In this document: positions 9,061 through 27,100 of the stretch, piece by piece
How positions within the stretch are numbered: the first letter of the stretch is position 1
Layout of the letters: each line of letters starts with the position of its first letter
Made by a program: the position numbers and the translations under genes
Assembly: GCF_016653465.1 (NCBI RefSeq)
Contig: NZ_NHSQ01000107.1
Span: forward strand, 1 to 64,000
Reading direction: 5' to 3'
Length of the DNA stretch: 64,000 nt
DNA from: Thiocystis minor
GTDB lineage: Bacteria > Pseudomonadota > Gammaproteobacteria > Chromatiales > Chromatiaceae
Notes under the pieces: model-generated
Seen by the model: only the letters and a program-made list of their open reading frames with translations
Database searches by the model: none
Told to the model about the DNA's origin: nothing

Positions 9061-10053
9061 TTAAATAACGGACCCTCCGCCGTTCTCGCGCCGACGCGAC
9101 AGCCGGCTATAAGTCTTATCCAACTGTTTGCGCAACTGGGCGCTTTCTTCGTCGAGAAAGGTCAGAAAGGCGTTGGCGACAACCGAGAGTTCCTTGCCCT
9201 TGGCATAGGCGACAGACCATTGGCGCTCCAGCGGAAACCCCTGGACATCAAGGATCGTCAACTGCGAGTGCGCGGTTTCCTGGATCAGGGTGTGGAGCGA
9301 GAGAATGGAGATTCCGAGCTGGCCATAGATCGCATGCTTGATGGCCTCGTTGCTGCCGAGTTCCATGCGCACCCGCGGTCTGAGTCCGGCCTCATTGAAG
9401 GTCTTTAGGACATAGTCGCGGATGCCGGAGCCCGGCTCGCGCATGATGAAATATTCCTCCGCCAGGCGTTCCAGGGGGATCTGTCGTTCCCGCGCGAGCG
9501 GATGGTCGCGATTGGCGATGACATAGAGCGGATTCGGTGCGAATGGTCTGGTGACCAGGTCGATGTCGCGATCTGGGTTCTGGCCCAGAATATAGAGATC
9601 GTCCTTGTTGCCGATCAGCCGCTCGATGACACTGTCCCGATTGGTAACCTTGAGCGAGACATCGACGCCGGCGTAACGCTGGCAGAAGCGTCCGAGCACC
9701 TCTGGGGCGAAATACTTGGCGGTGGTGATGACGCACAACCGCAGATAGCCCTGTTTCAGACCCTTGATGTCCGCGACCTTCATCTCGAAGCGGTCGAGAA
9801 CGCCAAAGACGTCCTTGACCGCGGTTTCCAGTTCGCGGCCGGTATCCGTGAGATGCACCTGGCGGCCAATCTGCTCGAACAGTGGTAGGCCGATGACGTC
9901 GGTCAGCCGTTTGATCTGGGTCGAGACCGTGGGTTGTGTCAGATACAGCTCGTCAGCCGCCTTCGTGAAGCTCTTGAGGCGCGCGATGGCCTCGAAGACC
10001 TGGAGCTGACGAAGGCTGACATGACGGGTGAGATTCATCATTCGGTCAAACAT
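9061..10053 (-). CDS. cbbR: CbbR, LysR-type regulator of the RuBisCO/carboxysome operon
   Basis: A 330-residue LysR-family regulator. The N-terminal winged helix-turn-helix reads LRQLQVFEAIARLKSFTKAA and then LTQPTVSTQIKRL. The effector-binding half starts near residue 95. Sequence style and position at the end of the cbb/cso operon point to CbbR, which activates Calvin-cycle operons in response to metabolites such as NADPH or RuBP. I chose the ATG at 10053 because GTGAG sits upstream at suitable distance; ATG 10041 is possible. Unusually for CbbR, it is downstream and co-directional with its likely target, not divergent from cbbL. Confidence 0.85.
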   Translation of the reverse strand: MFDRMMNLTRHVSLRQLQVFEAIARLKSFTKAADELYLTQPTVSTQIKRLTDVIGLPLFEQIGRQVHLTDTGRELETAVKDVFGVLDRFEMKVADIKGLKQGYLRLCVITTAKYFAPEVLGRFCQRYAGVDVSLKVTNRDSVIERLIGNKDDLYILGQNPDRDIDLVTRPFAPNPLYVIANRDHPLARERQIPLERLAEEYFIMREPGSGIRDYVLKTFNEAGLRPRVRMELGSNEAIKHAIYGQLGISILSLHTLIQETAHSQLTILDVQGFPLERQWSVAYAKGKELSVVANAFLTFLDEESAQLRKQLDKTYSRLSRRRENGGGSVI

Positions 10054-10087
10054 CGTTGGCTCACAGAGGTCGCGATCATAGCAAACC

Positions 10088-10282
10088 TCAGTCCGGCCAG
10101 ACCCGCTGCCCGGACTGATAACCTTGATCATAGGGCACGAATGCCGCCGGCTTGGGCGCCGGTCGACGCTTGGTCGGGCGTTTCGGACTGCTCTGAGTGA
10201 GTGCCGGCCGGGTCTCCGCCGTCGCGGGCGGCGGCGCGGCGGACTGGGCAGGCGCTGTCGGCTGCTCGGTTTCGGTATTCAT
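10088..10282 (-). CDS. Small Pro/Ala-rich protein at the end of the carboxysome operon
   Basis: A 64-residue open frame with a good ribosome site (GAGGAAA) before its ATG, 22 bases after acRAF and 34 bases before cbbR on the same strand. The first 45 residues are Pro/Ala/Thr-rich and then basic (SSPKRPTKRRPAPKP). The end, FVPYDQGYQSGQRVWPD, is aromatic and Gly-rich and looks like a short linear motif. No family recognised. Its position suggests a carboxysome-associated accessory peptide, but that is inference. It could also be chance, since GC-rich DNA gives such frames. Confidence 0.5.
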   Translation of the reverse strand: MNTETEQPTAPAQSAAPPPATAETRPALTQSSPKRPTKRRPAPKPAAFVPYDQGYQSGQRVWPD

Positions 10283-10304
10283 GCGGGTTTCCTCGTCTCT
10301 GCGC

Positions 10305-10586
10305 TTAGGGCTGGCCCGGTGTTGGGCGCGCGCTCATCAGTTCTTCGATCCGCTCGGCAAGCGCAAGGCGTTCGGGGGCGATGTCGGCGGCATCCTGCTC
10401 GGCATGGATGGAGATGTTCGCATAGGTCCGCCCGAAGCTGATGTCGGGGTAATAGCCTCCCGGCTCGCAGATCACGGCCACCGCGTCTAAAAAATCCCGC
10501 GTCTGTTCGTAGTCGTCGAACTCCAGTCGGCGTTCAAGACGTGGCGGGCGCTCGCGTCGTTTCCAGCCTTGCTGAGTGGCAGTCAT
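10305..10586 (-). CDS. acRAF, pterin carbinolamine dehydratase-like RuBisCO assembly factor
   Basis: A 93-residue member of the PCD-like family known as acRAF, which is conserved in alpha-carboxysome operons and helps form IA RuBisCO assemble. The sequences LERRLEFDDYEQTRDFLDAV and CEPGGYYPDISFGRTYANIS cover the family core; the true dehydratase motif with its paired histidines is not intact, as expected for acRAF. ATG overlaps the stop of the upstream ferritin-like gene (ATGA, 10583-10586). Cytosolic. Confidence 0.83.
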   Translation of the reverse strand: MTATQQGWKRRERPPRLERRLEFDDYEQTRDFLDAVAVICEPGGYYPDISFGRTYANISIHAEQDAADIAPERLALAERIEELMSARPTPGQP

Positions 10587-11029
10587 CCGTTTATCGCTCC
10601 GGTGCGCAGTTGTTCGATCCAGGCTTCGAGTTCGCGGACGTGCCCGAACTCCTCGTCATGCAGGGTGCCGAAGAGCGCCCGGTTTTCCATGTCATTGATC
10701 AGGGCGCAGTAGTCAGCGGCCTCGCGATAGAGCGTCACCGCACGCCGTTCCAGTTCCAGATCGGCAGCGAGCAGATCGATGAGCGAGGGACCGGCCCTGA
10801 CCGGCGTGATCTGAGACGCGTTCGGCATGGCGCCCAAGCGTAGCATCCGCGCCGTCAGGCGTTCCGCATGCTCCTGTTCCTCCAGCGCTTCCTTGCGAAA
10901 ATGGTCGGCGACCTCCGCCAGTCCCCACAAATGGGCGAGCCCGGCGTGGGTGAGATACTGTTGAACGGCGCTGAACTCGTGGCTCAGGGCGCGGCCCAGA
11001 TAGCCCAGCACTCTCGGGTTTGCCATCAT
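10583..11029 (-). CDS. Bacterioferritin-like protein of the carboxysome operon
   Basis: A 148-residue four-helix ferritin-like protein. Di-iron ligand candidates are visible: Glu in LSHEFSAVQQYLTHAG, Glu and His in EALEEQEHAERL, Glu in ADLELERRAVTLYREA, and Glu with His in LHDEEFGHVRELE. Bacterioferritin-like genes are common in proteobacterial alpha-carboxysome operons, with no settled role; iron storage or redox protection has been suggested. It lies between csoS1 and acRAF and overlaps acRAF by four bases. It is slightly shorter than typical Bfr (about 158). Confidence 0.83.
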   Translation of the reverse strand: MMANPRVLGYLGRALSHEFSAVQQYLTHAGLAHLWGLAEVADHFRKEALEEQEHAERLTARMLRLGAMPNASQITPVRAGPSLIDLLAADLELERRAVTLYREAADYCALINDMENRALFGTLHDEEFGHVRELEAWIEQLRTGAING

Positions 11030-11118: not shown

Positions 11119-11442
11119 TCAGGACCGACCGTGTCCGCCGTCCGTGTCGCCGGGCTTCTCCGGCAGGACCGGCTCCACCTCGCGGTGCGGGCGGGCGATG
11201 ATGTGGGCGGCGACCAAGCCGTCGCCCACTCGTTCGCAGGCGTCGGCGCCGGCCCGCACGGCGGCGTTGACCGCGCCGGTCTCGCCGCGTACCAGCACCG
11301 TGACGTAGCCGCCGCCCACGAATTCACGTCCGATCAGCCGCACTTCGGCGGCCTTGGTCATGGCATCCGCTGCCTCGATGGCGGGCACCAGGCCGCGCGT
11401 CTCAATCATTCCTAATGCGATTCCGTAGCTGTCAGAGGCCAT
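11119..11442 (-). CDS. csoS1: CsoS1 major carboxysome shell protein, second tandem copy
   Basis: A 107-residue single-BMC-domain protein that forms the hexagonal tiles of the alpha-carboxysome shell. The sequence [20 protein letters not shown] and the [18 protein letters not shown] pore region are typical. It is almost identical to the next csoS1 (11516-11830) over the first 95 residues, differing near the N-terminus and at Ile/Val in VRLIGRE, but has its own tail (LPEKPGDTDGGHGRS). The ATG at 11442 follows a GGAG site; the open frame upstream is not used. Two csoS1 paralogues in tandem are usual for these operons. Confidence 0.92.
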   Translation of the reverse strand: MASDSYGIALGMIETRGLVPAIEAADAMTKAAEVRLIGREFVGGGYVTVLVRGETGAVNAAVRAGADACERVGDGLVAAHIIARPHREVEPVLPEKPGDTDGGHGRS

Positions 11443-11515
11443 GGTGAAATACTCCGAGTGTCGATCTGAAAACAATGTCGATTGCGTTCTTTGCGGTTCA
11501 TCTGTGCTTGTTAAG

Positions 11516-11830
11516 TCAACCTGCCTGCTTGTCGCCGAGGCCGCCGAGCGGCAGAATCGGCTCCACCTCGCGGTGCGGGCGGGCGATGATGTGGGCGGCG
11601 ACCAGACCGTCGCCCACTCGCTCGCAGGCATCGGCGCCGGCCCGCACGGCGGCGTTGACCGCGCCGGTCTCGCCGCGCACCAGGACCGTGACGTAGCCGC
11701 CGCCCACGAACTCGCGTCCCACCAGACGCACTTCGGCGGCTTTGGTCATGGCGTCGGCCGCTTCGATGGCGGGCACCAGGCCGCGGGTCTCGATCATCCC
11801 CAGGGCAATTCCGTAATGTTCGTCGGCCAT
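11516..11830 (-). CDS. csoS1: CsoS1 major carboxysome shell protein, first tandem copy
   Basis: A 104-residue single-BMC-domain shell protein. The BMC fold sequences [20 protein letters not shown] and [20 protein letters not shown] are intact. The tail after [12 protein letters not shown] is the main difference from its neighbour. It lies 124 bases downstream of csoS4B. Near identity of the two copies at DNA level suggests gene conversion or recent duplication. I cannot decide which is CsoS1A, B or C. Confidence 0.93.
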
Positions 11831-11954
11831 TTCATGTACTCCTCTGTTTCAAAAAAGCAGGTTGTGTTTAAAACCAGGTTGCGTATTAAACGCGGATTAT
11901 TTTGCCAATCATCAGGTTAGGGGGGCGCGCCATGTCTAGCTGCGCCGCGATGTC

Positions 11955-12233
11955 TCAGCCCCGAGTCGGTGCCGCGGTGCCCTCTCCTTGATCAATGATC
12001 CAGTGATCGATGATTCCTCCAATGCTCAGGTCGGTGAGCACCGCTTTGCCGACCGCCAGCCGCGCCGCCGAACCACTGATGGTGAACACCCAGTTCCCGG
12101 GCCGGCTGCCGACCGTGTCGACCGCCACCGCCCGCCCGCCCTTGGCGTCTCGCAGAACCCGCAAGGAGACGGATTGGAGCCCCGCAACTCGGCGCGTGCA
12201 GACCAGCGCGTCTTCGACCTGCATGATGTCCAC
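11955..12233 (-). CDS. csoS4B: CsoS4B carboxysome vertex protein
   Basis: A 92-residue BMC-P (EutN/CcmL-like) pentamer protein that caps shell vertices. The family sequences RPGNWVFTISGSAARLAVG and LTDLSIGGIIDHWI are clear. The first codon is GTG at 12233; this gives the usual start (M-D-I-M-Q-V), one spacer codon after csoS4A ends. ATG at 12224 is a weaker alternative. The tail extends about 10 residues beyond HWI, slightly longer than usual. It is translated from the same message as csoS4A, two bases downstream. Confidence 0.91.
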   Translation of the reverse strand: MDIMQVEDALVCTRRVAGLQSVSLRVLRDAKGGRAVAVDTVGSRPGNWVFTISGSAARLAVGKAVLTDLSIGGIIDHWIIDQGEGTAAPTRG

Positions 12234-12235
12234 AC

Positions 12236-12481
12236 TCAGTTCTCCTTCCAGTGGTCGATGATGCCGACAATGGTTAGATCGCTCGGATAATCCTTATGGC
12301 CGGCGGCCTCGCGAGCCGCTGAACTGCCCACGCAGATGACCCAGTCGCCCGGCGTGCAGCCGACCGCGTCGACCGCCACCACCCGGCTGCTACCGTCTCT
12401 CACGACCTGCAGATGGCGGTGCTCCAGCCCCGGAATGCGGTTGGTCGCCACCAGTGGTTTTTCCACCTGACAGATCTTCAT
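12236..12481 (-). CDS. csoS4A: CsoS4A carboxysome vertex protein
   Basis: An 81-residue BMC-P pentamer protein. It has the signature VDAVGCTPGDWVICVGSSAA followed by YPSDLTIVGIIDHW. Its ATG lies within the stop of csoSCA (ATGA, 12478-12481), so the two are probably coupled. CsoS4A and CsoS4B close the twelve vertices of the alpha-carboxysome; loss makes shells leaky in known systems. Start chosen at M-K-I-C-Q-V, the conserved beginning. Confidence 0.93.
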   Translation of the reverse strand: MKICQVEKPLVATNRIPGLEHRHLQVVRDGSSRVVAVDAVGCTPGDWVICVGSSAAREAAGHKDYPSDLTIVGIIDHWKEN

Positions 12482-14034
12482 GCCGCTTTCTCCAGTGCCG
12501 TGAGCGAGCCGCCGACCGGCTCCGCCGGCGCGGCGCGGCTGCTGTCGCGCACCGTCCAAAAGGTCTGGATCAACCCGCGCTCGGCCAGGTCCGGATAGCG
12601 CTGGCCGATGGCCTCGGCGATACGCGCGCAGCGCTGGATCGCCCGTTCGCGCGCCCCCGGCACCTGTCCCGAATAGTCGAAGCGCAGCACGATGGGGATC
12701 GGCAGACCATGGGCGACGTTGAGACGCCGAAAGATCTTGATCCCAACGTCCAGGTTCGGCGCGCCTTCCTCCAGGGTGCGCATGAAGGCGAAATAGGTCA
12801 GGTTCCGAAGCTGGATCTCTTCGAAATCGCTGCCCACGCCGATGAAGCGTTCCTCATGTCCGATATCCGCATAGTGTCCGCCCTCGTAATGCCGCACATA
12901 GTCGATCTGCGCGATGTTGTTCTCGATCAGCCGCGCCATCAGGCGCTGCATCCCCGGCTCGGGCGGTCGGCCGCCATCGCGCGGTGCCGCGATCCGCTCG
13001 CGGATCAGGTTGCGCGCCGATGCCGCATCCAGCCGGGCGGTGGCGCCGTAGAGTTCGCCCGCGTCGATGAAACGATCCAGATCGGCATCCCCGGTCGCGC
13101 CGGGAAGGTGGATCCGCACCCGATCGGTGTCCGTATCGATGCCGAGCAGCAGCACCTCGATCGACGCCCCGCAGCAGTAACTGTTCTCCACTGCTTCGCG
13201 GAAGGCCCGCAACTGTTCCAGGCCGGCCATCGCGGCGCGACGGGTGTCACTGCCATGCGCCGCGCATCCGTGGTGCGTCGGGTCGCGGCTGCTGTAGTGA
13301 TAGCTCACGACCTTGAGATAACGTGTCGGAGCGTCCGCAAGGTTTGGCACGCCCTCGCGGAAGCGGCTGAGTTCCACGCTGGCCCAACGCTCGACCGCTT
13401 CCTCGACATCGAAGAGCGTCCCGGCGTAGGACTTGCGACGCACGGCGCCCATCGGCAGGCGCAGCACATAACTGATGGCGTGCGCCAGACGCCCGTCCGC
13501 GCAGGGCGTCACATTCATGGCATGAAACCCGCAATCGAGCAGGAACGCCTGAAAGGCCTCGGACCGGTCGCGAGTCGCCAGCGGATCCTGCCCGACGTAG
13601 TCGCCGCTCATGATGCGCAGGGTCTCGAAGGTGGCATGCGCGAAGAGTTGGCGCATATCCAGATCATTGACCCAGGCATCCTCAAGCACCGTGCCTGGAA
13701 GCTCGAATCCAAGCTGCCGCCGGGATTCCTCTTGCGCCCAGGTCACAAAATCCGCCTCGTGCTGGCGGGCCGCCAGCGATTTGAGTGTCGGCACGATCCG
13801 CGCGAAGGCGCCCTTCACTCGCTGTTCATAGGCGCGCAACCGTTCGTTGTCCGCCCGCGGCGTGAGCGGATGTCCCGCGCTGGCGCCGAATCCCACGGCA
13901 ACCGGGGCGCCGACCAGATCATCCACCGGCGTTCGGGTGCCGGCGGCCTCGGTTGAGGCGACTATCCGGCCGGCCGGCGTGCCGCTCCATAGCGGGGTGC
14001 GGGTGCGTCGGCGCGGTTGGGGTCTGATTCTCAT
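12478..14034 (-). CDS. csoSCA: CsoSCA carboxysomal carbonic anhydrase
   Basis: A 518-residue epsilon/beta-like carbonic anhydrase inside the alpha-carboxysome that turns bicarbonate to CO2 for RuBisCO. Zinc-site residues are visible: Cys178 with the Asp180-Arg182 pair in TPCADGRLAH, His246 in VVSYHYSS, and Cys257 in HHGCAAHGS. The first 60 residues are Arg/Pro-rich and disordered, as in other CsoSCA, where this part binds RuBisCO. The C-terminal half (from about 375) is the catalytically dead repeat of the fold. A GGAG site precedes the ATG. It starts 208 bases after csoS2 ends. Confidence 0.95.
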   Translation of the reverse strand: MRIRPQPRRRTRTPLWSGTPAGRIVASTEAAGTRTPVDDLVGAPVAVGFGASAGHPLTPRADNERLRAYEQRVKGAFARIVPTLKSLAARQHEADFVTWAQEESRRQLGFELPGTVLEDAWVNDLDMRQLFAHATFETLRIMSGDYVGQDPLATRDRSEAFQAFLLDCGFHAMNVTPCADGRLAHAISYVLRLPMGAVRRKSYAGTLFDVEEAVERWASVELSRFREGVPNLADAPTRYLKVVSYHYSSRDPTHHGCAAHGSDTRRAAMAGLEQLRAFREAVENSYCCGASIEVLLLGIDTDTDRVRIHLPGATGDADLDRFIDAGELYGATARLDAASARNLIRERIAAPRDGGRPPEPGMQRLMARLIENNIAQIDYVRHYEGGHYADIGHEERFIGVGSDFEEIQLRNLTYFAFMRTLEEGAPNLDVGIKIFRRLNVAHGLPIPIVLRFDYSGQVPGARERAIQRCARIAEAIGQRYPDLAERGLIQTFWTVRDSSRAAPAEPVGGSLTALEKAA

Positions 14035-14242: not shown

Positions 14243-16525
14243 CTAGCCCCGCGCGCCGCCGGACAGCGTCACCAGCGCACCGCGTTCGGTGCTGCCGCTG
14301 CTGCCGCTGACCCGGATCTCGGGCACCTGACGCTCTTGCGCCTCGCGAAAGGTACGCGCGCCGGCAAATGGCCCCATCGGCGCGCCCCGTCGGGTCGGAT
14401 TGCGCCCGACCGCGGATTTCCCCTCGGTCCCGGTGACCCGCTCGTTGCGCCCCCAGTCGTTCCCGGTGATCCGCGTGCCACCTTCCCGGCCTTCACCGGT
14501 GATGCGTGGGCGCGCGTCCGCCACTGGCCCAGCAGGCTCGCGTGGCGTGGGCGGTGCGAGCGGCACGGGATTGATGCTGACCCCGCGCGGTTGGGCACGA
14601 CCGGGGCGGCGCTGCCGAAAGTCCTCGGTCCCCGTCACGACGCCGCTGGCCATGTTGAAAGGGCCGGTCACGCGGTCCTGCGGCTGGTCGTAACGGATGC
14701 CGGTGATCATCCGACTGGCCGGTTCCGACTGGGCCGCCTGAGCCGGTGACTCGACGCTGAAGGCACCCCAGTTGCCGCCGCTCAGCGGTTGCGGAAAATC
14801 CGCGCTCCCCGGCGTCGCCTCGACACCCTGGCCGCAGGTCGAAAAGAACTGGTCCTCCCCGATGTAGGGTGTGCCAGTGACCTCCTGGCAGACGCCCTTG
14901 GCGGCACCCGTCATACCCCCATCGATTCCGGGCTGAATGCCGGTGAGTCCAGCGCCCGGCGTACCGCGCGGGGATGGTGTGCGCTGGGCCATGGCCTGTA
15001 GCGTCTCGGGCGCGCAGTGCGACCGGAACTGCTCCTGTCCCAGATAGGCGGTTCCGGTGACGATCTCGCAGGTTCCAGGCTCGTTGCCGGTGACCTGACG
15101 CGAGCGCCCGACCAGACTGCCGGTGACCTGCTGACCGTGCCAGGTGGCATCGGCACCCACCTTCTTGATGCCCTGCGGTTCCGGTTCGGACCCGCTCCGG
15201 CAGTAGCCCTGATAGTGCTCGAAGCCCAGGTACTCGTTGCCGGTCACGCGCTGACAGCTTCCCGGCTCGTTGCCGGTCATGCGCTCGCTGCGTCCGATCA
15301 TGGAGCCGGTCACCGAACCCCCGCCATAGGTCTGGGTCGACCGCACCTTGGGTGGCGCGCCTTCCGGGCCGGGGGAGGTATAGGGGGTGCCGGTCAGGGT
15401 GCGGCCCGCCCCCGTCTCGTCGCCCGTCACCCTGGGACTACGACCCACCTGGGCGCCGGTGACGGTCTGTCCTCGGTCGGTCATGATCGCCTCCTTGATG
15501 CGGTTCGGCGCGGGCATTGATTCGACTCCGCAGAACTCCTGGAAAAGTTCCGCGCCCATGTACTCGGTCCCCGTCACCTGACGGCAGCTGCCCGGTTCGT
15601 CGCCGGTCGTGCGCGCGCTGCGTCCGACCCGCGTGCCCGTGACCGTCTGACCCAGGGCGGTCGCGCTCACGCCGACCTTGGGCGGTCCCTCGGCGGGGCG
15701 GGGCGAGGCTGAGTGGCGTATCCGTCCACTCGGACGCGGACCGACGTCACCGCATTTGCCGTGCTCGCAGCGTTCCTCGCGCACCCGCCGTGCGATGTCG
15801 CGCGAGCTGACACCCGCGTTCCTGAGCAACGCCGTGGTCGCGGCGCTGCGCGACCGGCCGCTGACCGAGTCCGCGCCGGCCTTGCCGCGGTCGGACGTGG
15901 CCGCGCGGCGCGCCATCGACAGCATGCGACCGCGCGGCGGCTTTGGCGCCTTGCTGGCGGCGCTCCGGGAGCGGGTGGGACGCGCGCGGTTCTTGCCCGT
16001 GTCCTCGCTGACCCGCGGTTTAACCTCGACCTGCTCGGCAGACCGCCGGGCCCGGCGCGCGGCCACGTCCGGCCGCGTTTCCGCTTGTGGTGCGGGCCTG
16101 ATCCGCGCGGTACTCGACGCGATCGCACGCCGGCGCGCGATCGCGGCATCGCGTCCCACCAAACCCTGTGTACTGGAACGCAGGGTCTCGGTCGGTGAGG
16201 TCCGAGTCAGGTGCCGCCGCCCATGGGTGATCTGCTCGCGCCGTTTGATCGAGCGCTGACGACCGTCGGCCACCTTGGGTGGCTGGCGCTTGCGCCTGGG
16301 CTCGTTCCGAACGGGTTCGATCTGAATCGAGCGCGGTGCCGGGCTCAATTCCTGGGGGGTCAGGGTGTGACCTGGTGTCTCGCGTGTAGCCGCCGGATCG
16401 CGGGCCGCCCGTGCGGGCGGCTCCGGGCTTGGCAGGCATGCCTTGCCGCCGGCGGCCATGGCGCGGCGTTTGGCGATGGACGCATCGCGCCCAGTCAGCC
16501 GTCGTTCGCTTCCAGCCTTGTCCAT
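14243..16525 (-). CDS. csoS2: CsoS2 carboxysome scaffold protein
   Basis: A 760-residue intrinsically disordered scaffold. Four N-terminal repeats that bind RuBisCO are visible: RDASIAKRRAMA, RDAAIARRRAIA, RGRMLSMARRAA and SSRDIARRVREERC. About four to five middle repeats follow (residues about 290-560) with the pattern VTGxxxGRSxxVTGxExGxCxxVTGTxYxG and paired cysteines. The C-terminal region carries ITGN/VTGTE elements and ends in the conserved shell-anchoring peptide ending LSGGARG. GAGAGG precedes the ATG. In Halothiobacillus a programmed frameshift gives short and long forms; I could not identify a slippery site with confidence here. Confidence 0.95.
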   Translation of the reverse strand: MDKAGSERRLTGRDASIAKRRAMAAGGKACLPSPEPPARAARDPAATRETPGHTLTPQELSPAPRSIQIEPVRNEPRRKRQPPKVADGRQRSIKRREQITHGRRHLTRTSPTETLRSSTQGLVGRDAAIARRRAIASSTARIRPAPQAETRPDVAARRARRSAEQVEVKPRVSEDTGKNRARPTRSRSAASKAPKPPRGRMLSMARRAATSDRGKAGADSVSGRSRSAATTALLRNAGVSSRDIARRVREERCEHGKCGDVGPRPSGRIRHSASPRPAEGPPKVGVSATALGQTVTGTRVGRSARTTGDEPGSCRQVTGTEYMGAELFQEFCGVESMPAPNRIKEAIMTDRGQTVTGAQVGRSPRVTGDETGAGRTLTGTPYTSPGPEGAPPKVRSTQTYGGGSVTGSMIGRSERMTGNEPGSCQRVTGNEYLGFEHYQGYCRSGSEPEPQGIKKVGADATWHGQQVTGSLVGRSRQVTGNEPGTCEIVTGTAYLGQEQFRSHCAPETLQAMAQRTPSPRGTPGAGLTGIQPGIDGGMTGAAKGVCQEVTGTPYIGEDQFFSTCGQGVEATPGSADFPQPLSGGNWGAFSVESPAQAAQSEPASRMITGIRYDQPQDRVTGPFNMASGVVTGTEDFRQRRPGRAQPRGVSINPVPLAPPTPREPAGPVADARPRITGEGREGGTRITGNDWGRNERVTGTEGKSAVGRNPTRRGAPMGPFAGARTFREAQERQVPEIRVSGSSGSTERGALVTLSGGARG

Positions 16526-16552: not shown

Positions 16553-16894
16553 TCAGAGCGCCCGGTACACCAGGAAGGAATGTCCCTTGCTCTGGGCGTA
16601 GTTGTCATAGCCCACCAGGCGGACATGGTGGTCAGGGTAGGCGCGTCGGCAGGCCTCGATCTCGGCCAGGATGACGTTGGGATCCTGCTCGCCGAAGAAG
16701 GGCAGCTTCCACATCGGCCAGTAATAATCGAACGCGGTGCTCGGATGTTCGTGCTCAAGCGAGGCGTTCCAGCCGTTGTCCAGGATGTAGAGGATCTGCT
16801 CCAGGATCTCCTCCCGGTTGAGCGGAGGCAGGTAGGAAAAGGTCTCGTAGCGGCCGATGGTGGCGTGATCGCCAATGCTGCTTGCAATGCTCAT
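16553..16894 (-). CDS. cbbS: RuBisCO small subunit, form IA
   Basis: A 113-residue small subunit of form I RuBisCO, of the expected length for carboxysomal form IA. The sequences [30 protein letters not shown] and [20 protein letters not shown] are typical. It assembles as L8S8 with CbbL and is packaged by the CsoS2 N-terminal repeats. It follows cbbL by 58 bases and precedes csoS2 by 27 bases. Its C-terminal half is the reference for spotting the small-subunit-like protein at 20629-20946. Confidence 0.97.
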
Positions 16895-16952: not shown

Positions 16953-18368
16953 TCAGCCGACGTCCAGCTTGTCCACCACATCGAACTCGAACTTGATTTC
17001 TTTCCAGGTTTCCATCGCCGAGGCGAGTTCCGGACTGTGGCGCGCGGCTTCGGTGAGGATCTCGCGGGCATTCTTCTCGATCTCGACACCCTCGTTGCGC
17101 GCCTTGACGCAAGCCTCGGTCGCGACCCGGTTGGCCGCCGCGCCCGCCGCGTTGCCCCAGGGATGACCTTGAGTCCCGCCGCCGAACTGGAGCACCGAGT
17201 CGTCGCCGAAGATGGTCACCAGCGCCGGGATGTGCCACACATGGATACCGCCGGAGGCCACCGCCATCACGCCCGGCATGCCGCCCCAGTCCTGATCGAA
17301 GAAGAGTCCGCGTGCGCGGTCTTCCGGGATGAAGGACTCACGGATGGCGTCCACGAAGCCCAGGGTCGACTGACGGTCGCCTTCGAGCTTGCCCACCACG
17401 GTCCCGGTATGCAGATGGTCGCCGCCCGAGAGACGCAGACACTTGGCCAGCACCCGGAAGTGGATGCCGTGCTTGGGATGCCGGTCGATGACCGCGTGCA
17501 TGGCGCGGTGAATATGCAGCAGCATGCCGTTGTCGCGGCACCAGTTGGCCAGACTGGTATTGGCCGTGAAGCCACCGGTCAGGAAGTCGTGCATGATGAT
17601 GGGCGCGCCGCACGCCTTGGCGAACTCGGCCCGCTTGAACATCTCCTCGCAGGTCGGCGCGGTCACGTTCAGATAGTGTCCCTTGCGCTCGCCGGTCTCG
17701 CGCTGGGCCTTACTGACGGCCTCCGACACGAACTCGAAGCGGTTCTGCCAGCGCATGAAGGGCTGGGAGTTGACGTTCTCGTCGTCCTTGGTGAAATCCA
17801 GACCGCCGCGCAGCATCTCGTAGACGGCACGGCCATAATTCTTGGCGGACAGACCCAGTTTGGGCTTGACCGTGGCGCCCAGGAAGGGTCGGCCATATTT
17901 GTCCATGCGGTCGCGTTCGACCTGGATACCGCTGGGCGGGCCGCCGCAGGTCTTGACGTAGTGCAGCGGGAAGCGGATGTCTTCCAGGCGCAGATGGCGC
18001 ACCGCCTTGAAGCCGAAGACGTTCCCGACCAGCGAGGTCAGCACGTTCACGATCGAGCCTTCCTCGAACAGATCGATGGGATAGGCGATGAAGGCGTAGA
18101 AACTCTCCTTGTCGCCGGGCACATCCTCGATGCGATAGGCGCGACCCTTGTAATAATCCAGGTCGGTGAGCAGGTCGGACCAGACATTGGTCCAGGTTCC
18201 GGTCGAGGACTCCGCCGCCACGGCGGCCGCGGCCTCCTCACGCGGAACATTGGCTTGCGCCGTGATCTTGAAACAGGCCAGCAGATCGGAATCCAATGGC
18301 ACATAGTCCGGGGTCCAATAGGTCAGGGCATAGTCTTTCACGCCCGCGTCGTACGTTTTGATGCTCAT
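16953..18368 (-). CDS. cbbL: RuBisCO large subunit, form IA carboxysomal
   Basis: A 471-residue large subunit that fixes CO2 onto ribulose 1,5-bisphosphate. The activation-site motif [17 protein letters not shown] carries the lysine that is carbamylated and the Mg ligands Asp/Glu. [11 protein letters not shown] holds the other catalytic lysine; loop 6 ([10 protein letters not shown]) and [11 protein letters not shown] are intact. First gene of the carboxysome operon, reading leftwards into cbbS. A GGAG site precedes the ATG. The sequence style is carboxysomal form IAc. Transcription is expected to depend on CbbR. Confidence 0.98.
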
Positions 18369-18522: not shown

Positions 18523-18697
18523 CAGTCAGCCGCCAGCGATCAGCTTCCAGCCATTGTGTTGCGGAGGTTTGCGCTTCTTGCGTCACCCGGCGGGTGAGCC
18601 TCGGCAGACCTCGCTCAGTCGCCAAGTCGCTGATTCCCAAAAGCTGGCGACTGGAGGCTGGAGGCTGGAGGCTGGAGGCTGACCGCTCTTTTTGATG
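18523..18697. repeat. Short element with heptamer inverted ends, copy A
   Basis: About 175 bases starting CAGTCAGCCGCCAGCG and ending in four tandem GGAGGCT heptamers then GACCGCTC. The two ends are inverted repeats of each other (GAGC.GTCAGCC type). It is related along its length to 20462-20628 in the same orientation. It has no coding capacity, so it resembles a non-autonomous miniature element. It lies between the cbbL promoter and the end of the Nudix gene. Confidence 0.65.
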
Positions 18698-18710: not shown

Positions 18711-19277
18711 TCAGGCGACGTTGGCGGGATTGCGCAGCCGGCGGGTCTTCTCGACCATCCGATGGGTAGACAGATTGTTGTTGAAGCGCGAGACCTGGGT
18801 CAGCGGCACCCAGAGGATCTCATGGGATTCGTCGTTGCCGGGAATCTCCAGGTCGTCGTCCATCTCCACCAGGAAGCGGATATCGACGTGTTCGTGCCGC
18901 GGGCCGCGTTCGCTGACTGGAATGACGTGGATATCCACATCAAACACCGCGCTGTTCACGAGTCGCACATGCGAGGGATCCAGGCCGGTCTCCTCCGACG
19001 TCTCGCGCAGTGCCACCCGCAGGATGTCCGCGTCGCCGTCGGCATGGCCGCCAGGCTGAAACCACTGGTCGTGTTTGCGGTGGTGCAGCAGCAGGATCCG
19101 CTCCCGATCCGGGCTGACGACCCAGGCCGAGCCGGTGACATGACCGGGCCAGAGGTCACAATCGAAGCAGTTCTCGTGGCGCTCGATGAAGTCCAGCGCA
19201 CGGTTCACATGGGCCGCCTCCTCCATGAACGGAGTTCGGTGGCGGTGCAGCAGGCTCAACAAATCGCGGCGATGCAT
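18711..19277 (-). CDS. Nudix hydrolase in the carboxysome cluster
   Basis: A 188-residue Nudix protein. The Nudix box reads GGHADGDADILRVALRETSEETGL at residues about 106-129; the canonical first Glu is Asp here, a variation seen in the subfamily with the GGHxDGD start. The remaining REXXEEXGX part, which binds metal, is intact. Substrate cannot be told; ADP-ribose-like or nucleotide diphosphates are possible. The ATG at 19277 gives the family start; a longer frame would run into a repeat. It lies between csoS1D and cbbL on the same strand. Confidence 0.82.
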   Translation of the reverse strand: MHRRDLLSLLHRHRTPFMEEAAHVNRALDFIERHENCFDCDLWPGHVTGSAWVVSPDRERILLLHHRKHDQWFQPGGHADGDADILRVALRETSEETGLDPSHVRLVNSAVFDVDIHVIPVSERGPRHEHVDIRFLVEMDDDLEIPGNDESHEILWVPLTQVSRFNNNLSTHRMVEKTRRLRNPANVA

Positions 19278-19526
19278 GGGCTGTTGGTCGGTGATGATTG
19301 GGATGAGGGTAGTACAGCGGCGCTTCAGTTTTGGCAACCTCGTGCTTCGCTGCTCAAGTTCCGAGACCGAAGCCTCCTCGTTGTCGTTGTCGTAATCGAA
19401 TATTCGCCATATCGAGACCGCGATCACGACAACGACAACGACCTGAGACGGTTACGATGAATGTCTTAACTGAAGATGGCGCCGGACGCAGGCAAATCAA
19501 AGCCGATGCACTCAGGCCGCCAGGCA
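19278..19526. other. Intergenic stretch containing a repeat hairpin
   Basis: No gene seen. The middle (19344-19451) is one copy of the hexamer-hairpin repeat described separately. The stretch lies between the stop of csoS1D (19527) and the start of the Nudix gene (19277), so the two genes may not share a transcript. Confidence 0.5.
19344..19451. repeat. Hexamer-hairpin repeat, copy 1
   Basis: The sequence begins GCTTCGCTGCTCAA, carries two TTGTCG hexamers, a central TAATCGAATATTCGCCAT, then an arm of CGACAACGACAACGAC, and ends GAGACGG. It matches 60686-60805 closely, except that the other copy has six TTGTCG units. Arms pair into a hairpin. The variable hexamer number makes it a minisatellite-like element. 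Confidence 0.75.
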
Positions 19527-20141
19527 TCAGACGCCGGACAGGCTCTCGACGGCGGCAACGGCGGCCGCTGCGGCCTCGTTCACATCGCCCTCGGTGCCCG
19601 AGAGCGTGAGCCGCCCGAAGGCGCCGACGGCGCGCACGTCGATGATGGTGATATTCGCGGCCTTCTCGGCCTGATTGGCGGCATAGATGACATAGCCCGC
19701 CGGCTCGGTTTCCAGGATGAACATGCTCTGACCGGGCAGGATCATGGAGCCGCGGCGGCTCTGGCGATTGATCAGGACCGTGTGGTCCGGCGTGATGGCG
19801 CGAATGATCTCCTTCCAGGCGACCTGGCACTTCTGGCGGTCCTCCACGCGGGCGTTCATGTGCGACAGCAGGATGCGGCCCGCTTCCAGCACATTGCTCT
19901 GGTCGCGCTGATGGATCACCATCGACCCGAAATTGCGCTCGACCACCTGCTGCGCCAGATGCACGCGCGCCGCTTTCAGCGCCGTGTCCGTGAGGCGGTG
20001 CACCGCCATGCCGGGGGCGACTTCCACCCAGAGGCAGGCATCGCCCGGAATCGGCAGGAAGCCCTGGGAGACCGTGGCCATGTACTCGGCCAGTTGCGGC
20101 TGAAGCGAGTCAATGAAGACGTAAGTCCTGAGTTTGATCAT
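19527..20141 (-). CDS. csoS1D: CsoS1D tandem-BMC carboxysome shell protein
   Basis: A 204-residue protein with two BMC domains that forms pseudohexameric trimers with a large gated pore. The N-terminal domain covers about 1-100 ([20 protein letters not shown] at the start), and the second domain covers about 105-204 with [20 protein letters not shown] and then [20 protein letters not shown]. It lacks the longer N-terminal extension of the cyanobacterial form. The ATG at 20141 was chosen over a longer frame with non-BMC residues. It is upstream of cbbL here, on the same strand, not downstream of the cso operon as in some relatives. Confidence 0.88.
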
Positions 20142-20628
20142 AAAGTGACAGCGCCGAGACGGGTGGCTCCGCGGTGCGGGCGGAGGACGGGGATGACCAA
20201 GCGATTGTACAGGGAGGAAATCGCGGTTGTCGCAAGCTGGCTTCCCGATTCCGAGACCACCGTCCAGGATCCCTCCCGGACGGACACGGCCTGGCGGCGC
20301 TGTGCCTGTCATCAACTGGTCAAGATTCGACCGGCATGCGCGGATGTCAGCGATGGCGGGGCGAGCAGGCTACTCTACAGAGGTTATCCACAGATCTGAT
20401 CACAGAAATTGTGCATATTTCAACCGCCTCGGCAGCGTGACTTCGTTGATCCCAAAGAGCACAGTCAGCCGTCAGCGACCAGCCTCCAGCCTCCAGCCGT
20501 TGTTTTGCAAAGGTTTTCGCTGATCGAAGCCTTCCCCCGCTGTGCGGATCCCAGCAAGCGAGGCACGATGGCCAAGTGTTTGATTCAAAAAGCTGGCCGC
20601 TGAAGGCTGGAAGCTGACAGCTCTTTCA
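20142..20628. other. Intergenic stretch before csoS1D, with element copy B
   Basis: No convincing gene in 487 bases. The right part holds the short element at 20462-20628. The left part includes TTATCCACAG at about 20384-20393, which resembles half of a DnaA-box-like sequence, but a single site is not meaningful. The csoS1D promoter should lie here. Confidence 0.5.
20462..20628. repeat. Short element with heptamer inverted ends, copy B
   Basis: About 167 bases starting CAGTCAGCCGTCAGCG and ending AAGCTGACAGCTCTTTC. Ends are inverted repeats built of heptamers (CCAGCCT / GGCTGAA). It aligns in direct orientation with 18523-18697. Its right edge touches the stop codon of the small-subunit-like gene, so it may carry that gene's terminator. 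Confidence 0.65.
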
Positions 20629-20946
20629 TTAATGCGGGCGGTGCACGGTCACGGAGAGCTTACTGTGCCAACCGACATTCTCGACATTGAGACGGATGTG
20701 ATGATCGGCATGCGCGCGTCGGCAGCTTTCGATCGAGTCGTAGACCGCGTCCAGGTTACCGTTGTAGCAACTGGGTTGTTCCCAGAGCCTCCAGGCACTA
20801 AATCTGGGCGCGATCGCGGCGGCGTGCTCGATACAGATGAAACATCCCTGATGGAGACACTGGCCGAGTTGCATGAGGATCCGCTCTTCCGCCGGAAAGG
20901 GGCGGTTGGCGAGCGTCCGTTTCGTGGTCTGAGCTAAAGCCTGCAT
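20629..20946 (-). CDS. Stand-alone RuBisCO small-subunit-like (SSUL) protein
   Basis: A 105-residue protein with clear likeness to the cbbS product of this same window. Here SIESCRRAHADHHIRL matches [16 protein letters not shown] of CbbS, EERILMQLGQCLHQG matches [15 protein letters not shown], and the end HSKLSVTVHRP matches the final CbbS strand. It lacks the N-terminal arm of CbbS and its long loop, which is the layout of the SSUL modules in cyanobacterial CcmM and RuBisCO activase. GTGAGG precedes the ATG. It lies between bicA and csoS1D, so a role in binding or organising RuBisCO is likely but inferred. Confidence 0.8.
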   Translation of the reverse strand: MQALAQTTKRTLANRPFPAEERILMQLGQCLHQGCFICIEHAAAIAPRFSAWRLWEQPSCYNGNLDAVYDSIESCRRAHADHHIRLNVENVGWHSKLSVTVHRPH

Positions 20947-21166
20947 TTGGTTGCCTCACGGGTTTGGTGATTAGGGCCAGGAAGCCAGATCGAATCGAGC
21001 GCAACTGCTCGTGGGCTCCCGTCGTCGAGGCCAGAATAGTTCTTGAGCCTTTAACTGGGAAATTGGGATTGACCGCAGGCGGCATCGATCAGGGTCGATA
21101 GGGGGAGATCGGCGGCATGACGCTCGCGGAGTTCCCCGCCGAATCACGGGACGATGGCGAGGCCAA

Positions 21167-22852
21167 TCAGGCCTCCGCAACGTGCGCCACGAGAGAATCA
21201 CGCCCGTCGTCTCTCAACAGGGCTTCCGCCTGATCGAGCGCCTCCTGCTTGGTCGCGACCAACCGCCCGGCGGGGAGCGCGGCCGTGATCCCGAGCCGCT
21301 CCAGCCGCTTGAGAACATCCCCCTCCGCGCCCGCGATCCACACCTCCCGGCCGGCGGCGAGGTCTTCCAGGATGATCTTTTCCAGCGCCAGCGAGGACGA
21401 GACGCCCAAAACCGGCACATCCGTAAAGTCCATGATCAGCACCGCGTGGTCTGCCAGGACCGCATGCTGGCGCGAGATCGCCTTGGCGAGCCCGAAGATG
21501 AGCGGCCCGCCCAGCGAAAACAGCAGAATCCGTCCGTTGGAACGCTCCAATACCGACTGCTCGTCGAGCGTCAGGCCATCCGCCGTACCAGGTTCCCGAA
21601 TCGCCCGCACCGCTTGACTCTGGAGCTTGCAGAGACGATCGATGGTGAGGACGTTGGCCACGAAGACCCCGAGTGCCACGGCCCAGATGAGATCCACGAA
21701 GACCGTGAGTCCGATCACCCCGTACATGATCATGGCGGCACGCAGCGAGACCCGATGCGCCCGCTTGAGGAACGACCAGTCGACGATATCCAGACCGACC
21801 TTGAGCGCGATGCCCGCCAGGACCGCGAGCGGGATCTGGGCCGTGAGACCGGCCGCCCAGAGCACCACGACCAGCAGGATCGATGCACGCACCAGCCCCG
21901 ACAGCGCGCTGCGCGCGCCCGATTGAATATTGACCACGGTCCCCATGGTGGCGCCAGCGCCCGGAATCCCGCCGAAGAGTCCCGAGGCGATGTTGCCGAT
22001 ACCTTGCCCGACCAGCTCCTTGTTGGAGTCGATCTCCTTGCGCGTGAGGCTCTCCGCGATCACCGCGGTGAGCAGGGCGTCGATGCTGCCCACCACCGCA
22101 AGGACCAGAGCCTCGGTCACCATGAGACGCCACTGATCCAGGCTGAAAACCGGAATCTGCAGCGAAGGCAGGCCGGCGGCAATCTCTCCGATACGCCGGA
22201 TCTCCAGGTGGCTGAAGAAGAAAATAGATACCAGGGTTCCCAGGATCAGGGCGAGCAACTGAGGCGGAAAATAGTGTTTGAGACGGCTCGGAAAAAACAG
22301 GATCAGCGCCATGGTCATGACCGCGAGTCCCACCTCGGCCGGGGCGATCGCGGCGAGCAACTCGGGCAGGGATTGGAGCGTGCCCAAGACCCCACCGGGC
22401 GGGGTGGCATGCCCGAGGAAGGGGCCGATCTGGAGGATCACGAGGATGAGACCGATACCGGTCATGAAGCCCGAGATGACCGTATAGGGCATGAGCGTCA
22501 CGTATTTTCCCAGTTTCAGCGCGCCGAGCAGAATCTGGAAGACGCCCGCCAGCATGACGACGGTGAAGGCCATCGCCATGCCATTCTCAGGGTTCGCCGC
22601 GATCAGGTGTGCGATGATGGCCGTCATCACCACCGTCATGGGACCGGTGGGCTCGGAGATCAGGGTTGGCGTTCCGCCGAACAGGGCGGCGAACAGACCG
22701 ACCAGCACGGCCCCGTAGAGACCGGCCGCGGGCCCCGCGCCGGAGGCGACACCGAAGGCCAGGGCCATCGGCAGGGCGACGACGGCGGCGGTCACGCCGC
22801 CGAAGACGTCGCCTCGCAGATTGTCGAAGCGGATTTCGTTGAGTATGCGCAT
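21167..22852 (-). CDS. bicA: BicA-type SulP sodium-dependent bicarbonate transporter
   Basis: About 561 residues, SulP family: 14 membrane segments (to about 420) and a C-terminal STAS domain (about 440-545). It is close to cyanobacterial BicA over long stretches, such as TLISEPTGPMTVV, NSKELVGQGIGN-like DSNKELVGQGIGNIASGLFG, and AGATMGTVVNIQSGARSALS. The Asp and Thr of the IDALLT segment (Asp near residue 257), which help bind Na+/HCO3- in BicA, are present. It imports bicarbonate at the inner membrane to feed the carboxysome. The start ATG at 22852 fits an AAGGG site better than ATG 22858. Confidence 0.88.
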   Translation of the reverse strand: MRILNEIRFDNLRGDVFGGVTAAVVALPMALAFGVASGAGPAAGLYGAVLVGLFAALFGGTPTLISEPTGPMTVVMTAIIAHLIAANPENGMAMAFTVVMLAGVFQILLGALKLGKYVTLMPYTVISGFMTGIGLILVILQIGPFLGHATPPGGVLGTLQSLPELLAAIAPAEVGLAVMTMALILFFPSRLKHYFPPQLLALILGTLVSIFFFSHLEIRRIGEIAAGLPSLQIPVFSLDQWRLMVTEALVLAVVGSIDALLTAVIAESLTRKEIDSNKELVGQGIGNIASGLFGGIPGAGATMGTVVNIQSGARSALSGLVRASILLVVVLWAAGLTAQIPLAVLAGIALKVGLDIVDWSFLKRAHRVSLRAAMIMYGVIGLTVFVDLIWAVALGVFVANVLTIDRLCKLQSQAVRAIREPGTADGLTLDEQSVLERSNGRILLFSLGGPLIFGLAKAISRQHAVLADHAVLIMDFTDVPVLGVSSSLALEKIILEDLAAGREVWIAGAEGDVLKRLERLGITAALPAGRLVATKQEALDQAEALLRDDGRDSLVAHVAEA

Positions 22853-22927
22853 GGCCATGGCCCTTTTGGCGAATTGACGACGCCTTATTTAAGGGACTCC
22901 AGTCCATCGATACAAAATGATATTTAT

Positions 22928-24101: not shown

Positions 24102-27100
24102 ATGAAAGGCTTCAATGTCTCCATCCTGAACGAGATCGCCAACAACCTGCGGGAGCGGTACGAGTACGACAACGGCTTTCCCATTCTCAAGGAATTGATT
24201 CAGAACGCGGATGACGCAGTCGCCAGCGCCCTGGTCTTCGGTCGGCACGCGGGTTTTGCGGACGCCGGTCATCCCCTGCTGATCGGGGCGGGGCTGTGGG
24301 TGTGGAACGATGGCCCGCTCAAACCGGGCGACCTGGATAATCTGGCCTCGTTCGGCATCAACAGCAAAGCCGGTGACGCCACGACCATCGGCAAGTTCGG
24401 CCTCGGCATGAAGAGCGTCTTCCATCTGTGCGAGGCGTTTTTCTATCTGGCCTGGGACGGCGAAATCCTGAATCGCGACAGTCTGTCGCCCTGGACGCTG
24501 GAGTTTCACCCGGATTGGGATGTCGTCGATGCCGCCGACTGGCAACGACTGCAAGATCTGGCGCAGCAGATTGCCACCGGTCGCGCGAGCGGCGAGCGCC
24601 ACTGGTTTCTGCTCTGGCTGCCGCTGCGCCGTCAAGCCCATCTGCAAAACGAGCGAGGCGCCACGGGCGCCATCATGCAACGCTTTCCGGGCGATCCGCC
24701 ACATCCCGATCTGGACTTTCTGGAACAGGGCGATCTGCCGTTACAGTGCGCCGACATCCTGCCCCTGTTGCGGCATCTGGAACGGATCGAATACTGCCAG
24801 CAGACACCGACGCAACCGACGTTTACGGTCGTGCTCGACGCGGGTGACCGTCTGGCGCATGACCAGCCAGCCGGCAAGACCGGCGAGACACAGGGCCGCG
24901 TCACTGTGTCGCCTGACCGTGCCTTGACCTTTACGGGTTTCCAGCAGCAGCGGACAGATTCTGAATTCGGTCAACTCAAGGAGCATAGAATCTGGCCGCG
25001 CAGCTTTTATCGGGATGAATCATGCCACGAACGACCCACCGAGGATAAAGCTCGCCCCGAAGCCGCCGTGTTATTCGCCCGAGCAACGGACGACAGCCGG
25101 TTCAGTCTGCGCTGGGCGGTCTTTCTGCCGCTCTACAAGGGCGAGGAACAGAGTCGCATCGATGGCGGTTGGCATTACCGCATCACGTTGCATGGTCAAT
25201 TCTTCGTGGATTCAGGCCGACGCGGCGTTCATGGCTTCGATTCGCTGCACAAAACTCCGCCCCCGATTGACGCGGAGCTTGATGACGCCACCCTGCGCCT
25301 TGCCTGGAATGCGCATCTGGCGCAACAGGTGCTGGCGCCGCTGGTATTGCCCGCGCTGGCGCGGTTTGTCCAAGCCGAACCACTCGACGATGCCGCTTGC
25401 CGACACCTGACCGCCGCGCTGCAAGCCACGCAGTTTTTTCAGCGTTTCCAGAAATTCCTTTGTAAAAACGAAGCCTGGTGCCGGATTCTGAGGCCGGATG
25501 GTCCGGCATGGGAGTTGGTCAGTGGAGCGGATCGAGCGCATCTGCGGCCATTTCCTGCGCCGTCAAAAGCCGATCCTCAATGGCCCTGGCAGGTCTTTCC
25601 CCGGTTGTCGGGTCACCGCTGGCTGCTGTTCGATCAAGCCGCTCCCGCTTTGCTCGACCAGACCCGGCAATGGCTGGCACCTGAACTGGAACAACTGCTC
25701 GCCGAGGTCCCCGGGATTTTTTCCGATGGCCCCCGGATGGAGTATCTGGCCGAGTTTCTGGAGTCCAGCGCACGGCCGTTTCTGAACATGGAGTCGTTGC
25801 AACGGCGTCTGGTCGAACTGTTACGCGCTGGTTTCATAGCCGCTGATGCATCAGTCAGAACGACGCCAGAATTGGCCGATAAAGTGCGTCGGCTAATCGC
25901 TCTCCTTGAGCCTCGGCACCGCCTCGATCTCACGACGGAATTGCCAGAAACCACTTGGCACGCCCTTTGGTTCATCGGCGCGCCCATTCTCTTGGTACCG
26001 AAGCTCGTCTCCAAGAAAGGATCGGCACGATCACTCGACTCTGGGGTTGCTGTCCCCACGGATGACACCCTTCGGGAATGGTTGAGCGTCATCGATCAGC
26101 ATTTATCGGACTTTCCTGATCAGACCCAGGATAAGTTGCTCGGCGCATCAAAAATCTTATTGAAAACGCTAGATCCTTCACGTCGCGGACAATTCTTTCA
26201 GAAGAATCTGACACTTCGGGTCATCGCCATGCGGGATGCTCGCACCAAGCGCACTCGTCCGGCGTCACCCGTCGAGATCTTCAAGATTCACGATGCGGGA
26301 TGTCTTTTTGGCTTGTTGATGGATTCCGCAACCGCACAACTGGGACTCACGCCCTTGCTGGCCGCTGTCCTACCGGAACATTCGATTGGGTTGGTGGACG
26401 CCGAGACCTATAAGGAGCTTTTCCCAGGGAAGCCAGTGCCCGCCAAGGCGAATGATGCCCAGGCTTGCCTGATGGCCATCGCACGGGATCAAACCGGGCG
26501 CCTGGGCGGCATCCCGGAACGCCGCGCCCTGCTGGAGAAGGCGAGCGATCCCGGAACGGATACCAGTGCCCGGCGCGGATTGCGCTATTTGCTACACGGT
26601 AACGCCAGTCATCGCCACGATGATCAGGCGACGCTCTGGATTCCCGGACAAAAGCAGCACCCTGCATGGCCGAAGCTATGGCGAGACCTCCATGGAGAAG
26701 ATCAATGGAACGTCCTCGACAGGGATCTCGTGGGCTGTCTTCCAAGTAGTCGCTGGCCCCATCTTGGTATCGAGGAAATCGAAGCCGATAACCTGATTCG
26801 GAAGTTACAGCCATCCAATCAAGGCATTCGCAATATCGCTGCCTTCGATCCCGAGGATTGCGAGGAAATTCTCTCCAAAATTCACGATCAAGATCTCTGG
26901 CAACGTCTGCCGCTGCATACCACGGTCGGAGACAACAGCAAGCCTGTTTCGGTCTGTAGCAAGCGCGTCTATCTCGCACCAAAGGATTTCGACCCAAGCG
27001 ATCCGCTCATCCGCGAGGCAACGCTGATCCGCCGCAGCGACCATCCGTCGGTCGCCGACAAGCAGCGGAAATGGCTCAGGCCGCTCGATGACCGCGCCCG

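Follow-up and report, generated by a model that had tools for sequence, protein, structure and literature searches.

In the current view, the disordered protein CsoS2 is the main organiser of RuBisCO in alpha-carboxysomes, whereas beta-carboxysomes use folded small-subunit mimics. The 64,000-nucleotide stretch of Thiocystis minor DNA that was analyzed here ("the window") carries an alpha-carboxysome gene cluster with csoS2 and a canonical cbbS, and in addition a gene for a stand-alone RuBisCO small-subunit-like protein (SSL; Table 1). What may be the purpose of a second protein of this kind in such a cluster? The original prediction had described it as an armless relative of CbbS, encoded between bicA and csoS1D, which might serve as a linker, a capping protein or a regulator.

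Table 1. Features of the carboxysome region in the window, in the order of the minus strand
Feature	Positions	Strand	Remarks
bicA, SulP-family bicarbonate transporter, directly upstream of SSL	21167..22858	-	NCBIfam BicA 863.8 bits, just below cut-off 880; Pfam Sulfate_transp and STAS
Ribosome site upstream of SSL (CCCGTGAGGCAACCAA-ATG)	20947..20966	-	purine-rich
SSL, stand-alone RuBisCO small-subunit-like protein	20629..20946	-	105 aa; start 20946, stop codon 20629-20631
csoS1D, tandem BMC shell protein, downstream of SSL	19527..20141	-	Pfam BMC; NCBIfam CcmP-like 235.8 bits, below cut-off
Nudix hydrolase travelling with csoS1D	18711..19427	-	Pfam NUDIX 53.8 bits; neighbours
cbbL, form IA RuBisCO large subunit	16953..18368	-	
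cbbS, canonical small subunit	16553..16894	-	Pfam RuBisCO_small 132.2 bits
csoS2 scaffold	14243..16525	-	NCBIfam CsoS2 525.7 bits, below cut-off 1100
csoSCA, carboxysomal carbonic anhydrase	12478..14034	-	NCBIfam 627.4 bits
csoS4A, csoS4B and csoS1 shell genes	11119..12559	-	sequence and synteny
Bacterioferritin-like, acRAF-like and LysR (CbbR-like) genes	9061..11029	-	

The predicted position of SSL was confirmed, with gaps of 220 nt to bicA and about 490 nt to the conserved start of csoS1D at about 20141, the reading frame of the latter being extendable to 20315. All genes from bicA through the cso and cbbLS genes to the LysR gene, SSL included, are located on the minus strand. The ribosome site that had been noted upstream of SSL reads GTGAGG-CAACCAA-ATG, with GAGG 7 nt 5' of the ATG, and many orthologues likewise have a purine-rich site of this kind before their start. 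No RNA families were found around the SSL gene, and a promoter scan gave nothing useful for it. Short similar intergenic repeats (CTGGAAGCTGACAGCTCTTTCAT-like, as judged by eye) are present at about 18640-18695 and 20470-20625, where they flank the csoS1D-Nudix pair. Adjoining the carboxysome region, an open reading frame of 2515 aa (24102-31649, plus strand) has a start that resembles sacsin-type/HATPase proteins by eye.

The small-subunit-like nature of the product, as originally proposed, is supported by the profile search. SSL is the third and much weaker match to Pfam RuBisCO_small in the genome (48.9 bits, E 6.6e-13, cut-off 27 bits) after two canonical small subunits, that of the window and another one on contig C116, and it shares about 31% identity with the window's own CbbS over residues 17 to 87. 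An AlphaFold2 prediction, for which 15 sequences of SSL and its relatives served as input, reached a mean pLDDT of 79.6, with values of about 85-93 from residue 31 onward (core about 90) and below 50 for residues 1-14, which are predicted to be disordered. The five models spanned 44.7-79.6, indicating that the depth of the alignment was marginal. In Foldseek, every top PDB match of the model was a RuBisCO small subunit (E about 1e-5, probability 1.00). VIA-align gave Z values of up to 12.6 with small subunits (rmsd about 4 over 92 residues) and a Z of 10.4 with the SSUL domain of the Nostoc RuBisCO activase (6has_A; rmsd 2.9 over 86 residues). Judged from its sequence and from the structure prediction, SSL has the RuBisCO small-subunit fold, and the profile score above the curated cut-off together with this fold places it in PF00101.

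The gene is no peculiarity of the window. A protein search in 194 genomes of the same family returned 27 genomes with E <1e-20, the own genome included, after which come ordinary small subunits with E values from about 1e-10 upward. With an SSL profile, 210 genomes of the order yielded 27 members at 118-160 bits and ordinary small subunits at no more than 50 bits; all 27 SSL genomes belong to the own family, which is Chromatiaceae by organism names. The sample of the class added one SSL genome from another family (G208, 135 bits, other matches at or below 57 bits), where SSL adjoins csoS1D and the Nudix gene. The phylum-wide sample contained only small subunits of up to 63 bits, of the red type where extracted, and no SSL; a scan of viral contigs with the query P0001 found no relative, and the plasmid collection just small-subunit matches of about 32% identity. 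The carriers, purple sulfur bacteria and relatives of these, are Thiocystis, Thiorhodococcus, Allochromatium and metagenome genomes of Chromatiaceae, Chromatiales or Gammaproteobacteria (14 named loci); the named loci come from a collection scan with a subset of alignment A1, the full A1 being too diverse. All products are single domains of about 99-132 aa. In a genome of another family of the class (G229, locus L137:5620-5880, minus strand), a much more diverged small-subunit-like protein adjoins csoS1D, with SbtA/SbtB-like genes nearby as judged by eye. It keeps a Trp that is Cys in SSL, and may be a remote relative of SSL or an independent case.

SSL is under purifying selection, with dN/dS of about 0.04-0.3. 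Between the window's SSL and its nearest relative, dN was 0.035 and dS 0.38, and dN/dS of the core was 0.04-0.30 within the Allochromatium group. In a phylogeny of about 107 columns, the SSLs form one clade, which is placed with red-type sequences at weak support (81). AU tests on these approximately 107 columns rejected neither a grouping with SSUL (p 0.68) nor one with the own cso CbbS (p 0.54). It is nearly certain that SSL represents a real, separate family of small-subunit-fold proteins that is distinct from CbbS.

How this family departs from CbbS was evaluated by comparing 28 SSL with 32 form IA and 29 red-type sequences, using the C. necator numbering for CbbS positions. The absence of the N-terminal arm, predicted from the window alone, holds family-wide: the SF/YLP motif (S9, L11, P12) occurs in 0/28 SSL but, with the same simple pattern, in 21/32 form IA and 28/29 red-type sequences. 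The N-terminal region of SSL is variable and its tail is not conserved. The near-universal residues of CbbS include Y25, E36, W48, L53, P54, F56 and E67 (PMC9164163, Table 2). W48 is kept in all 28 SSL, E36 in 26 and P54 in 18 of them, whereas Y25, L53 and F56 are changed and E67 is kept in 11/28. W31, strongly conserved in the CbbS sequences compared, is Cys in 28/28 SSL (C35), position 26 is likewise invariably Cys (C30, 28/28) and position 59 Gly (G63, 28/28). SSL contains a mean of 5.3 Cys per protein compared to 1.2 in form IA CbbS, and the mean pI is 7.1 compared to 5.3. SSL lacks the arm and the majority of the near-universal residues of a canonical CbbS.

The relationship to SSUL modules, which the original prediction had brought into play, could be upheld in part. 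The fold and the missing arm agree; the two-residue deletion, the spacing of the redox pair and the tethering do not. As counted on the sequences, W52 and C75 of SSL are 23 residues apart, as in CbbS, compared to 21 in SSUL, so that SSL does not have the SSUL-like deletion. The redox cysteines of SSUL are 18 apart (C514-C532 and C639-C657 in Synechocystis, same spacing in the Se7942 module), while C60 and C75 of SSL are 15 apart. An SSUL-type redox pair in SSL was rejected by position: C75 is kept, the partner site is not Cys and the other cysteines are located elsewhere.

To understand the biological meaning of SSL, its gene neighbourhoods were evaluated in 28 loci, comprising the window, 26 relatives and G208. 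Genes of the cso group or cbbL were present within the stretch read in 25/28 loci; the placement beside cso genes is conserved in further Chromatiaceae. The remaining loci are L036, L037 and L048, the last one on a 5.9-kb contig with cbbR only; the copies in L036 and L037 are located away from cso genes and count against the favoured reading outlined below. In 15/28 loci, bicA is upstream of or divergent to SSL. In L036, this position is taken by a gene for SbtA (PF05982, E 9e-90). L050, L052, L054 and L056 have there a gene for an antiporter subunit that resembles NADH dehydrogenase, like those of DAB pumps, and Pfam confirmed DabA itself in L052; several SSL genomes have no adjacent transporter. 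SSL thus travels with three unrelated carbon-uptake systems, BicA, SbtA and DAB-type, which switch between genomes. Since the transporter varies and the carboxysome and RuBisCO genes are the common companions, this points to RuBisCO and not to one transporter. A Nudix hydrolase gene is conserved beside csoS1D in many loci, also in L034, L042, L046, L050, L052-L055 and L127.

Co-occurrence was assessed across the 194 genomes. csoSCA was present in 26/27 genomes with SSL compared to 49/167 without it (Fisher p 1.5e-11, ignoring shared ancestry), and the sole csoSCA-negative SSL genome is an assembly of 88% completeness. Again ignoring shared ancestry, csoS1D (p 1.5e-4) and BicA (p 7e-5) were less strongly associated with SSL. 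About two-thirds of the csoSCA-positive genomes of the family do not possess SSL, which indicates that SSL is dispensable for alpha-carboxysomes in general.

One genome allows the carboxysome and SSL to be considered separately. G165, which falls into one genus group with A. vinosum, is a single-contig (complete) genome. BMC and pentamer families gave no match in this genome, csoSCA and csoS2 are interrupted, csoSCA is truncated, and cbbLS remain. Judged from these sequences, G165 appears to have lost its carboxysome (loci L139, G165:C1:2503000-2522900, and L037). Nevertheless, bicA and an intact SSL gene are kept about 2 Mb away from the broken cso genes, with dN/dS of 0.18-0.30 against relatives. 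Because SSL was retained in the absence of any shell genes, its retention seems not to need the shell. This suggests independence from the shell on the basis of one genome, in which the loss may be recent.

The tentatively favoured reading, held with less than even confidence, is that SSL is a single-domain RuBisCO-binding modulator, a cap, of the CO2-concentrating gene set, and possibly tuned by redox. As an accessory protein of the Chromatiaceae carboxysome or CO2-concentrating gene set, SSL would still recognise the surface of CbbL8S8 (or CbbL8), a binding event that is suggested by its fold and gene company. It would be a monovalent ligand beside CbbS or transiently in its place. With a single domain, SSL would cap or modulate RuBisCO but not cross-link it, and could influence the assembly state, the docking of CsoS2 or CsoSCA, or the activity. 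SSUL modules bind RuBisCO where two CbbL subunits and CbbS form a groove, and they are under redox control (PMC8580825); by analogy, the extra cysteines may make the binding of SSL redox-dependent. Expression at low CO2 would be expected from the gene company. The loss of many residues conserved in CbbS counts against this reading, and so do the retention of SSL in G165, which has no shell genes, and its absence from about two-thirds of the csoSCA-positive genomes of the family.

The data do not decisively separate a cap from an alternative small subunit, an SSUL-like adaptor or a regulator of uptake; the cap or modulator is preferred, if with some reserve. One alternative is a subunit that replaces CbbS in some L8S8 hexadecamers and tunes catalysis. 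In its favour, SSL shares the fold and the W52-C75 spacing of CbbS and is encoded beside cbbL in many genomes. Against it, SF/YLP is missing in all 28 sequences, a Cys takes the place of W31, conservation of Y25, L53 and F56 is lost and 11/28 sequences retain E67, which leaves this reading unlikely, albeit the foremost of the alternatives named here. Next comes a regulator of inorganic-carbon uptake: independently of RuBisCO, the fold would have been co-opted for binding BicA, SbtA or DAB proteins, or for sensing the carbon or redox state. SSL directly adjoins bicA in 15/28 loci, a further 5 have SbtA or a DAB-type pump next to it, the bicA-SSL pair persists in G165 without shell genes, and SSL has about 5 Cys compared to about 1 in CbbS. 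However, several genomes have no adjacent transporter, and BicA, SbtA and DAB are unrelated to each other, so that one conserved interface of SSL is unlikely and the regulator is rather improbable.

Similarly improbable, and placed after the regulator, is an SSUL-like adaptor, which would occupy the groove formed by the CbbL subunits and CbbS and connect RuBisCO with CsoS1D, the shell, the Nudix protein or a partner of the N-terminal tail. The armless fold, the structural similarity to the activase SSUL (Z 10.4) and the disordered tail would fit such an adaptor; the single module without repeat or fused domain, the unconserved tail, the absence of the SSUL-type deletion and redox-pair spacing, and the presence of CsoS2 do not. 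The CcmM-like linker role that had been considered at the outset is unlikely for the same reasons: one domain, no repeat, no fused partner and a CsoS2 scaffold still present locally. Finally, a decaying, functionless duplicate of cbbS would account for the low identity with CbbS (about 31%), but SSL is intact in 28 genomes, its dN/dS is about 0.04-0.3 and its invariant residues differ from those of CbbS. A degenerate cbbS was rejected on the grounds of the conserved family and the purifying selection, and such decay is very improbable.

The gene had been noticed before. A second small-subunit gene beside rbcL, with a role yet to be determined, was mentioned for Allochromatium vinosum DSM 180 (PMC3368242). 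This gene is almost certainly SSL, which adjoins cbbL in genome G124. The genome paper devotes one sentence to the extra gene and contains no family, fold or distribution, and no further description of SSL was found in the open-licence literature searched. A. vinosum is a cultured species with a genetic system on record (reference 46 in PMC3368242).

Compared to CbbS/RbcS (PF00101), SSL has the same fold, core length, W52/W55, E40, C75-R and DHHIRL segment. In contrast to them, it has no SF/YLP and no LP(F/M)F motif, a changed GYDN-type segment, C35 in place of a Trp, an added C30, often C38 and C60, and a fixed G63; it forms a separate clade, and the same cluster also encodes a canonical cbbS. 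SSL might represent a third class of small-subunit-fold proteins besides S subunits and tethered SSUL modules. It would be a free ligand of RuBisCO, rich in cysteine, in bacteria with alpha-carboxysomes; it would switch the packing or the activity of RuBisCO according to redox or carbon state, and its gene would accompany whichever inorganic-carbon pump is in use. This wider view is possible but rather doubtful. Were a conserved mimic of the small subunit part of alpha-carboxysome loci, such proteins would have arisen or persisted in both types of carboxysome, and a compact handle on form IA RuBisCO, consisting of one domain, would become available. With the SSUL modules of CcmM and the cyanobacterial RuBisCO activase, SSL shares the small-subunit fold without the N-terminal arm and the location in a CO2-concentrating gene set. 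The SSUL modules belong to beta-carboxysomes and are tethered, some as repeated units and some through fusion with a gamma-CA-like or AAA+ domain, whereas SSL consists of a single domain, with neither repeats nor a fused partner.
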